NCBI GenBank assembly: GCA_017643165.1
Contig: JAEPNY010000002.1
Span: 993,016-1,057,015, forward strand
DNA: 64,000 nt
From: Psychroserpens sp.
GTDB taxonomy: Bacteria > Bacteroidota > Bacteroidia > Flavobacteriales > Flavobacteriaceae
Direction of reading: 5' to 3'
Each line of letters opens with the position of its first letter. The first letter of the stretch is position 1. Shown in pieces: positions 53,426-61,232 of the stretch. The translations under genes and the position numbers were made by a program. The notes beneath the pieces were generated by a model that was not told where the DNA came from, made no database searches, and saw only the letters and a program-made list of their open reading frames with translations.

Positions 53426-53496
53426 CAGCCAATTTTGGATTAACCTCTGGCGAAAATCGTGAACGTTGATTTGAATGAACCATTTAAATTATAACA

Positions 53497-53847
53497 ATGA
53501 ATTCTTTAGTAAAATTTGTACAAGACGAATTTGTAGAAAAAAAAGACTTTCCAGAATTTGGAGCTGGTGATACAATCACAGTTTACTATGAAATTAAGGA
53601 AGGAAACAAAACACGTACACAGTTCTTTAAAGGTGTCGTATTACAAGTAAAAGGATCTGGATCTTCACAGACATTTACAATCAGAAAAATGTCTGGAACT
53701 ATCGGTGTAGAGCGAATCTTCCCTATTAACTTACCAGCACTTCAAAAAATTGAAGTTAACAAAAGAGGTAAAGTTAGAAGAGCAAGAATCTACTATTTCA
53801 GAGGTCTTACCGGTAAAAAAGCAAGAATTAAAGAAGTTAGAAGATAA
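53497..53847 (+). CDS. rplS: 50S ribosomal protein L19
   Basis: The 116-residue protein matches L19: FGAGDTITVYYEIKEGNKTRTQFFKGVVLQ, SSQTFTIRKMSGTIGVERIFPINLPALQKIEV and the C-terminal KVRRARIYYFRGLTGKKARIKE. L19 lies at the 30S-50S interface. It has its own promoter and a strong terminator, so it can be made apart from trmD. Confidence 0.98.
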   Translation: MNSLVKFVQDEFVEKKDFPEFGAGDTITVYYEIKEGNKTRTQFFKGVVLQVKGSGSSQTFTIRKMSGTIGVERIFPINLPALQKIEVNKRGKVRRARIYYFRGLTGKKARIKEVRR

Positions 53848-53872
53848 GCTTAAACTTATCAAACATAAAATG

Positions 53873-53902
53873 AAAAGCCTTGACAGTGTCAAGGCTTTTT
53901 TA
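53873..53902 (+). terminator. Intrinsic terminator of rplS
   Basis: AAAAGCCTTGACA (53873-53885) pairs with TGTCAAGGCTTTT (53887-53899), and more T residues follow. It lies 25 bases past the rplS stop and begins the long gene-free stretch. Confidence 0.9.
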
Positions 53903-53963
53903 GTTATGAACTTTTGTTAATAACTGTGGTTTATAAAATGTGAATATCTAAAACCTTAAAAAA

Positions 53964-53994
53964 TTTGGAATTCTCAAACAATCATTTACTTTAG
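53964..53994 (+). promoter_or_regulatory. Candidate promoter of the structured RNA
   Basis: TTTG (53964-53967), 19 bases, then TACTTTAG (53987-53994), one mismatch to TAnnTTTG, would start transcription near 54001. A second weaker choice is TTG 54054 with TAGTATTG 54081-54088 (24-base spacer). Either puts the RNA between rplS and icd. Confidence 0.42.
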
Positions 53995-54000
53995 CTAAAC

Positions 54001-54509
54001 AATTAACAACAAATCTAGTTTGGTTTTGAAATTTATTTTGAATTTGTGTTAAATTGTAAATAAAGTAACGTTCTTTAAAATAGTATTGTTTTTTGAGGTT
54101 TCGACGACGGCATGTGTAAGTGTGTTAGTTAAGGAATCATGAAGCTTAGGGAGCAGAACATGCGCAAGTAGGTTATGTTCACGGAGTGGAAAGCTTTGAA
54201 AAAGTAACGGGAGCGAAAGTAAACGTGAAAAGGATGAGCAATGTTGATTGAGCTGTTTGACACGCAAGTGAAAGATGAGTCCAATGGACATCAAGAAAAA
54301 CAAACTACGGAGCTTAGTAGCATCAGGTCAATACATTTTGAAAGTTGCGAAACGTTTCACCGATCTAGTGAGGCTTGAACCGAAACAGGGTGAGGGGACG
54401 AAAGTCCAGCTATCTTGAATTTAACAGCAATGTTAAATAGGTCACGCGGAGCTATTTCAAAAAAGCCATGTCAGAGTAGATTTCTACAGTGATATGGCTT
54501 TTGTTTTTT
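54001..54509 (+). ncRNA. Large structured noncoding RNA candidate, family not recognised
   Basis: The 830-base interval between rplS and icd has no credible protein gene, but shows a dense series of hairpins on the plus strand ending in a terminator. Directly visible pairs are GAACAT (54156)/ATGTTC (54175), AAGCTT (54142)/AAGCTT (54191), CAC-GCAA-GTG (54261-54270), GTCC-AAT-GGAC (54279-54289), GAAAGTT-GCGA-AAC/TTTC (54340-54358), GGAC-GAAA-GTCC (54396-54407), TTTAACA-GCAA-TGTTAAA (54420-54437) and AAATAG/CTATTT (54435-54457). Four of the listed hairpins have GNRA loops, as large ribozymes do. G+C is raised within the element. It lacks the tmRNA tRNA-like end and the RNase P core. The 5' end is near 54001 or 54095. 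A group II intron-like RNA is possible, but no domain V is seen. Confidence 0.6.
54461..54509 (+). terminator. Intrinsic terminator of the structured RNA
   Basis: AAAAGCCATGTCA (54461-54473) pairs over 13 positions with TGATATGGCTTTT (54490-54502), with one G-T pair. The inner stem GTAG/CTAC (54476-54479, 54484-54487) extends it, and GTTTTTT follows. There is no coding sequence just upstream, which implies a noncoding transcript ending here. Confidence 0.85.
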
Positions 54510-54603
54510 ATATACATTAGTTATCTAAACATTGGGATATCTACTTCTCAAAAGTCTAGATTTAATCCATAATACATTTTGTAAAAGTGTTCTCTTACAC
54601 ATC

Positions 54604-54633
54604 TTGAATAAGGGATAGAATTTTGTATATTTG
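54604..54633 (+). promoter_or_regulatory. Promoter of icd
   Basis: TTG (54604-54606), 19 bases, then TATATTTG (54626-54633) matches the Bacteroidetes promoter very well. The predicted start near 54640 leaves a leader of about 40 bases before the ATG at 54681, so icd is independent of the RNA upstream. Confidence 0.72.
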
Positions 54634-54650
54634 CTCTGCAAAAAAAATGA

Positions 54651-56900
<2,250 letters not shown>

Positions 56901-61128: not shown

Positions 61129-61232
61129 TTTGGGCGTTACCATACCGTTATAACGGATATGGTCGTGCTATCCGCTATATCTTTTTATCGTTATAAAAAG
61201 GATGTCGCTTTTATCACTAACGCTGGTAAAAA
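61129..61232 (+). repeat. Flavobacterial-type intergenic palindromic repeat
   Basis: The 104-base stretch after DUF4249 begins GGGCGTTACC and ends near CTAACGCTGG, so the ends are GCGTTA and TAACGC, inverted. Inside, ACCGTTATAACGG and ATATCTTTTTAT/ATAAAAAGGAT form hairpins, and GTGCTATCCGCTATATC is a phrase I remember from repeats scattered through many Flavobacteriaceae genomes. No open frame of its own is seen. It overlaps a falsely long start of murQ. Copy number could not be tested in this window; I see only one. Confidence 0.6.

Follow-up and report, generated by a model that had tools for sequence, protein, structure and literature searches.

To our knowledge, the number of large structured RNAs known in bacteria is small, and those studied in most detail are from Bacillota or phages. 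OLE, ROOL and GOLLD are large, ornate, stand-alone RNAs whose function is unknown or partly known, with ROOL and GOLLD described as phage or prophage RNAs (PMC12286853; this and the other papers are cited from excerpts of their text). Here we describe an RNA gene which, judged from its sequence, is a new family of this general kind. It lies between rplS and icd on the forward strand of a 64,000-nt stretch of Psychroserpens sp. DNA (the window; all coordinates are positions within it, and + is the forward strand). A preliminary description had placed an unassigned large structured RNA there, maybe a new class of Flavobacteriaceae, and a null result in Rfam together with strong covariation supports that view. 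The locus reads as an RNA gene that has an upstream block, a promoter-like pair, a boxA-like element and a terminator of its own, and it stands downstream of rplS in most of the genera we sampled. We are nearly certain that it is a structured, stand-alone, noncoding RNA gene present in single copy.

The RNA is large, ornate and stand-alone like OLE, ROOL and GOLLD, but these come from other lineages and none has a covariance match to it. In contrast to ROOL and GOLLD it is chromosomal with a fixed place, and because the exact patterns of its core and terminator are missing from the viral contigs searched, we dropped the idea of a phage origin. The raiA motif, or ModT RNA, is likewise a structured and broadly conserved bacterial RNA, but it is reported from other phyla (PMC11706538) and was unmatched in our Rfam scan of the interval. 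6S-Flavo (RF01685) is a flavobacterial noncoding RNA (ncRNA) behind the same boxA-like element, AACGTTCTTTAAA, although it is a separate gene in the same genome and its 108-position model has no match here. CcnA of Caulobacter is also an ncRNA gene tied to DnaA boxes, but it is 182 nt long and sits inside the origin (PMC8959179), whereas the skew minimum of two relatives of our genome is far from the RNA. The Soda Lake RNA (smtA motif) is longer than 350 nt, lineage-restricted, structured and of unknown function, as here; it differs in being found only in Thioalkalivibrio, upstream of smtA (PMC11109978), and we set it apart by this description, not by sequence. Among the papers listed in our literature searches (the best 25 of 1,215 for one query), none dealt with such an RNA as judged by titles and the start of abstracts; for the F. 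psychrophilum transcriptome (PMC9723704) we covered the small-RNA section of the main text.

A covarying fold that matches no known family

When we folded 87 homologous sequences with RNAalifold, we obtained a many-helix fold with compensatory changes, and 115 sequences of subtype I (the subtype of this locus) gave essentially the same fold. Its consensus has about 20 helices and nine hairpin loops, counting the terminator and the boxA hairpin, where the preliminary description had seen at least seven plus-strand hairpins. We obtained the 115 sequences by removing 8 duplicates and, from the 144 that were left, 29 that lacked a core motif, so this alignment is motif-selected and represents subtype I only. 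For one homologue set we removed 7 stretches in which the RNA is truncated and 19 duplicates; the locus L020, which does not have the exact core, never entered it.

Aligning homologous intervals, as had been proposed, brought out strong covariation across relatives. The strongest structural test is a hold-out between two clades. With the fold of clade A (53 sequences), 91.6% of the cells in clade B (62 sequences) are paired, and the reverse gives 90.5%, compared to 40–46% when the 3' partner is slid by 1–3 columns. The two clade folds have 97 pairs in common, out of 110 and 122. Among 56 sequences of less than 80% identity, the fold has 80 pairs and 52 of them changed on both sides. We also modelled the central hairpin together with the 3' domain, an RNAalifold-only version with 13 pairs being superseded by the consensus structure. 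Here 31 of the 37 pairs have both-sided changes, 90.9% of cells are paired versus 33–46% when slid, and none of 500 shuffles attained any of five measures. When column pairs are ranked by a corrected G statistic, the top 30 include 26 pairs of the structure and one more that is adjacent. The single-sequence fold of 54060–54516 has a z of -2.36, with 1 of 100 shuffles equally stable. The earlier choice of the plus strand as the RNA strand was right, because G-U cells greatly exceed A-C cells in the paired columns (1372 versus 180).

Four GNRA loops are conserved. Two are given with their counts in Table 1, and the other two, GAAA at 54400 and GCAA at 54427, occur in 74 and 69 of the 115 homologues; the chance expectation is 0.042 per tetranucleotide. 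Two further tetraloops are GNRA in merely 24/115 and 31/115. Of the GNRA caps named before, GCAA at 54264, GAAA at 54400 and GCAA at 54427 stand, while GCGA at 54347 does not, as it overlaps the 3' strand of the helix 54320–54324/54344–54348; the loop at 54215 had been missed. GTCAATACATTTTGA, the stretch with the highest conservation, is found unchanged in 25 of the 28 regions picked by overall similarity instead of by motif, whereas its figure of 109/115 is inflated since those sequences were selected by that motif. The strong terminator noted earlier at the end of the interval is there (54461–54502, followed by a U run). Its AAGCCAT/ATGGCTT pairs do not vary in any of 56 sequences, its exact form is found in 28 of the 28 first relatives, and our own genome has a single copy of it. 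For subtype I, the stem sequence is, by these counts, conserved beyond what a plain terminator needs; in other subtypes the terminator varies.

We rejected a coding gene or short peptide because reading frames are not conserved: the four frames of at least 45 aa within the RNA are stop-free in just 5, 5, 13 and 8 of the 115 homologues, which agrees with the preliminary view that the interval holds no credible gene. The interval then taken as RNA, 53902..54516, was too wide, since 53902–53999 is upstream block and promoter, but its remainder does contain the fold, at about 54085–54509. A long, stand-alone, multi-helix fold with covariation and without a conserved open reading frame, the features that mark a large ornate bacterial ncRNA, is what we find here.

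Known families do not account for the RNA. Against Rfam 15 the interval had zero matches at gathering score, be it to OLE, ROOL, GOLLD, raiA or any of the remaining families, and 53840–54700 had no credible match up to E = 10, most of the low-scoring ones clustering at the rplS terminator, so that the RNA is still unassigned. A scan of 20 subtype loci (E <= 0.05) returned nothing but a sub-threshold rimP match on the minus strand of the L200 terminator. The housekeeping RNAs of the same genome were located elsewhere: RNase P RNA (RF00010) at C2:450873–451184 with 191.5 bits, 6S-Flavo on C2 about 58 nt after 393,887, the bacterial small signal recognition particle (SRP) RNA (RF00169) at C2:966421–966519 with 53 bits, and the true tmRNA with the tag GENNYALAA. 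All of these score above their cut-offs, and we rejected the idea of a housekeeping RNA in disguise. The RNase P model has no match in 53840–54700 up to E = 10, the 6S-Flavo, 6S (RF00013) and RF00169 models are unmatched in the interval, and RF00013 was not found anywhere in the genome. ARAGORN detected no tRNA or tmRNA in the window, and neither it nor Rfam (RF00023) matches the interval. The absence of an RNase P core and of a tRNA-like tmRNA end, both asserted earlier from the letters, is thereby borne out.

Table 1. Features of the RNA gene and its surroundings, by position in the window.
Feature	Position	Strand	Remarks
dnaA	39991..41418		~12.6 kb upstream of the RNA gene
rplS (50S ribosomal protein L19)	53497..53847	+	upstream neighbour; NCBIfam TIGR01024, 138.1 bits, cut-off 90.7
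Terminator of rplS (hairpin and T run)	53873..53901	+	read in sequence; aligned relatives
Upstream block	53903..53948		inverted boxes TTATGAACT-TT-TGTTAATAA (53904-53923) plus another two half-sites; resembles DnaA boxes, candidate site of regulation
Promoter-like pair	53964..53994	+	TTTG (53964-53967), 19 nt, TACTTTAG (53987-53994)
boxA-like element AACGTTCTTTAAA	54067..54079	+	between promoter and fold
5' domain	54085..54304	+	closing stem 54085-54094/54295-54304; consensus of 115 mapped to window; covariation
5' domain helices	54097-54102/54134-54138, 54111-54115/54120-54124, 54144-54149/54182-54187, 54156-54163/54168-54175, 54193-54197/54235-54239, 54241-54248/54284-54291, 54261-54263/54268-54270	+	
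GNRA loop GAAA	54215..54218	+	conserved, 103/115 homologues
GNRA loop GCAA	54264..54267	+	conserved, 95/115 homologues
Central hairpin	54309..54358	+	bears GTCAATACATTTTGA, the most conserved stretch; UCAA/UUGA stem, loop UACAUU (54332-54337); supporting stems covary
3' domain	54360..54460	+	closing stem 54360-54369/54451-54460; inner helix 54374-54381/54440-54446
GNRA hairpins of 3' domain	54396-54407 and 54421-54436	+	
Terminator	54461..54509	+	stem AAAAGCCATGTCA...TGATATGGCTTTT (54461-54502) and U run
-7 element TATATTTG preceding icd	54626..54633	+	separate; read in sequence
icd (monomeric NADP isocitrate dehydrogenase)	54681..56900	+	downstream neighbour here; NCBIfam TIGR00178, 1322.6 bits

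Place and spread within the family

A DNA search of 57 genomes, our own included, gave matches in 28, and all 30 loci from this search contain rplS and icd. With an exact 21-base pattern of the most conserved stretch we found 88 stretches in species genomes. They are labelled as Flavobacteriaceae genera (Psychroserpens, Lacinutrix, Olleya, Gelidibacter, Bizionia, Winogradskyella, Mangrovimonas, Xanthomarina and others) or as metagenome bins, with one labelled Chlorobiota. In 80 of the 88, rplS precedes the core on the same strand, and in the remaining 8 the core is at most 529 nt from the end of the stretch, so rplS is present in 80 of 80 where the stretch suffices; the distance from rplS to the core is 450–540 nt in 75 of these 80. 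Downstream on the same strand, icd is found in 61 of the 88. Among the 27 stretches without it, 18 extend less than 1.6 kb downstream and 9 extend further, 6 of them more than 3 kb. Because these 9 hold no icd, we consider rplS the constant neighbour and icd not. In one genome (L102) the core is 1747 nt away from rplS and in another (L064) the terminator is 6535 nt away from icd; therefore the RNA gene is separable from both. An element matching TAnnTTYG within 120 nt upstream of icd is found in 74 of the 81 genera that have icd within the stretch. With a terminator of its own for rplS, a -7 element of its own for icd and long gaps on either side, the RNA gene is by all these signs independent of its neighbours.

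The gap between rplS and icd is 1.3–1.5 kb in a number of relatives (L002–L007, L010, L011, L015, L018, L019 and L021) versus 0.73–0.95 kb in the others, and in the former a further frame seems to intervene between the RNA and icd.

For the spread of the RNA we drew on the 149 genomes of the family, 146 of which matched rplS, and took 100 of other genera, 80 taken in rank order of their similarity in rplS and 20 further down the list. Automatic criteria place an RNA locus within 900 nt of rplS in 78 of these 100 genera. These comprise 40 with the core described here (subtype I), 10 with a CAATCAATGGTTGC core (II), 8 with GCAAGGGTATAATAAACTTGC (III) and 20 others. A relaxed terminator is found in 72 of the 100 genera versus 2 of 2464 background windows, while the loosest criterion, GCCAT...ATGGC, is found in 71 of the 2464. 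One locus, L263, was scored by that criterion alone and probably matches by chance; L209 and L278 depend on it too, yet retain the upstream block. Subtypes II, III and the others would form one family with subtype I on the basis of place, boxA, closing stem and terminator, the tested fold covering subtype I. When 395 genomes from across the order were searched with the model of central hairpin and 3' domain, 11 matched, every one of them from this family; since 7 candidates per genome were scored in the rows listed, under strict filters, this is weak evidence of absence outside the family.

We observed some further variants. A minor subtype (L198, L200 and L227) has a terminator stem altered on both sides, GCCATTTCA...TGAAATGGC, and does not have the upstream box pair. 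In L264, about 211–624 nt after rplS, there is a subtype with several GCAA-looped hairpins (by eye) and no Rfam match, and within about 1 kb after rplS in L278 we saw, also by eye, a strongly altered terminator followed by an apparent second box palindrome before icd.

Promoter, boxA-like element and upstream boxes

The promoter-like pair resembles TTTG/TAnnTTTG, which we take to be the Bacteroidota promoter consensus, and because of this resemblance of TTTG-19 nt-TACTTTAG we place the transcript start near 54000. Across 28 aligned regions, the place of the promoter is occupied by TAnnTTNR in all 28 and by TTTG in 23. A stricter promoter pattern downstream of the block is enriched, although not seen in all: 26 of 72 genera have it, versus 30 of 640 background windows.

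The boxA-like pattern AACGTTCTTT, at one mismatch or fewer, is found in 66 of the 78 RNA loci, in 2 of the 22 loci without RNA and in 172 of 2464 background windows. The genome has five exact copies of AACGTTCTTTAAA, among them those at the RNA gene, before 6S-Flavo and before tRNA-Tyr. With one mismatch allowed there are 47 genomic sites, versus 22 for a reversed control, and the related GTTCTTTAGC and GTTCATTAAC are in the 16S leader of a relative. We regard boxA antitermination of the RNA gene as probable.

The box pair of the window has one mismatch to TTATNAACA-N2-TGTTNATAA. Within 160 nt after rplS, 67 of the 100 genera have such a pair at one mismatch or fewer and 72 at two or fewer. 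It accompanies 69 of the 78 scored RNA loci versus 3 of the 22 loci without RNA (Fisher p = 5.7e-11). In 939,960 bases of two relatives, G012 and G006, with the RNA loci excluded, the pair occurs once at one mismatch or fewer, at G012 584,917, and the cumulative GC skew of G012 is lowest at about 564–584 kb and rises after that. Because this sole occurrence adjoins the GC-skew minimum of a genome, DnaA becomes a candidate regulator. The boxes look DnaA-like, and DnaA is a candidate for the protein that would bind them; as the regulator of the RNA gene we propose it tentatively, as a possibility somewhat short of even. In Bacteroidota, the link of the RNA to a box pair of the putative-origin kind offers a direct test of DnaA control over an ncRNA gene.

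The same part of G012, 584.4–585.2 kb (L300:15918 is C1 584,917), has the densest cluster of TTATNAACA-type boxes in 140 kb, next to the skew minimum, and may be the origin of replication of that genome. The frames flanking the cluster are presumably rpiB and rnr. An origin at the RNA itself, hinted at by the boxes and by a local skew flip, was ruled out since the skew minimum is about 0.30–0.35 of the ring away in two single-contig relatives. In our own genome, close but inexact copies of the box palindrome also lie in front of a gyrB-like frame and in the interval between two frames that resemble glutamine synthetase (L181, C6:37472, and L176, C2:48168; gene names from reading translations).

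Possible roles of the RNA

Our best guess is a ribonucleoprotein (RNP) scaffold that acts in trans, because the gene is independent of its neighbours, the RNA has two highly conserved, recognition-like elements, and there is no antisense signal to dnaA. We lean towards the joint view of a structured RNA gene whose product acts in trans, and for the scaffold role as such we see about even chances. RNA polymerase would start near 54000, and the boxA-like element would let it traverse some 500 untranslated bases, as on rRNA. The RNA, of about 430–510 nt, would be released at the terminator and fold into two domains flanking the conserved GUCAAUACAUUUUGA hairpin, with the GNRA loops perhaps forming tertiary contacts. 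The folded RNA would then work in trans, most likely as the scaffold of an RNP that is recognized via the GUCAAUACAUUUUGA hairpin and the conserved 3' stem, and a protein on the upstream paired boxes, perhaps DnaA, may tune its output to growth or replication. A more ambitious version, a DnaA-governed, boxA-antiterminated RNA machine across the family that couples growth or chromosome replication to an RNP activity, seems rather unlikely to us; in that version the RNA would be about 200–430 nt with a fast-evolving middle, while promoter, closing stem and terminator would be fixed.

There are a number of observations that speak against parts of this picture. With a home-made tree-based null, testing across the entire alignment leaves only 4 column pairs at E < 0.05, and 3 of these belong to the structure, although 32 of 118 pass when that null is limited to structure pairs. 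By automatic criteria the locus is absent from 22 of the 100 genera, so it is not universally needed; one absence is the genome L276 of a species-rich genus (g146), which has neither RNA nor block. Four of the absences are doubtful: L201 is apparently the genome of L102, with the RNA lying further off, L239 is truncated where its contig stops, and in L283 and L287 the terminator is changed but block and boxA are still present. Two of the five exact AACGTTCTTTAAA copies are near no known RNA, and the upstream regions of SRP, RNase P and tmRNA have no boxA. A check of 180 kb around the skew minimum of G006 (total sampled with G012, 1.12 Mb) turned up no such box pair, and a paper on a relative locates the origin at mnmG (PMC12843772). 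Between the RNA and the dnaA leader there is no complementarity exceeding that of shuffles.

The last point bears on a base-pairing cell-cycle regulatory RNA like CcnA, which would be made under replication control and pair with target mRNAs. Such a regulator would fit the paired DnaA-like boxes upstream of the gene and the position of dnaA about 12.6 kb upstream in the same window, and the ncRNA gene of CcnA itself, located at the origin of Caulobacter, has weak DnaA boxes (PMC8959179). However, the RNA here is long and largely paired, its most conserved stretch is a hairpin, and for dnaA, the one target searched, antisense control was ruled out with a longest pairing of 12 nt, within 30 shuffles (10–16). 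We think it improbable that the RNA works this way. The case for a ribozyme, cutting or joining itself or other RNA, which the preliminary description had named as an alternative in an ORF-less form, draws on the size, the GNRA loops and the conserved core, but the interval matches none of the ribozyme families of Rfam, and a single-copy terminator with a fixed place beside rplS gives no hint of intron-like mobility; we would put a catalytic role at a lower chance still.

It is very unlikely that the RNA serves icd as a cis-acting leader or extends rplS at its 3' end. The constant place after rplS and the presence of icd downstream in 30/30 loci of the first search would suit this, but rplS and the RNA each end in a terminator of their own, that of the RNA being strong, icd has its own -7 element, and in some genomes the gap on one side or the other is long or the first 3 kb contain no icd. 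We give equally little credence to the selected element being DNA, a site that titrates DnaA with the RNA as a by-product. The box pair is retained in genera with a differing RNA middle, as such a site would be, but covariation means selection on RNA pairing and the block is missing from 9 of the 78 scored RNA loci (one of which, L263, is the probable chance match). Least credible of all is a diverged RNase P, tmRNA, 6S or SRP RNA, which would likewise be widespread in the family, single copy and behind a boxA-like element, since all four have their places elsewhere in the genome and the interval scores for none. The RNA is chromosomal, lies beside rplS and was scored in 78 of the 100 genera sampled from a single family, so it is amenable to deletion, probing and purification.

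Rfam also matched other RNAs in the window. An L19-Flavobacteria leader (RF03130) precedes rplS at 53441–53468, and the 5S and the 23S end were matched elsewhere. Flavo-1 (RF01705), a previously reported flavobacterial RNA, is at 61157–61232 on the minus strand, about 7 kb from the RNA gene.
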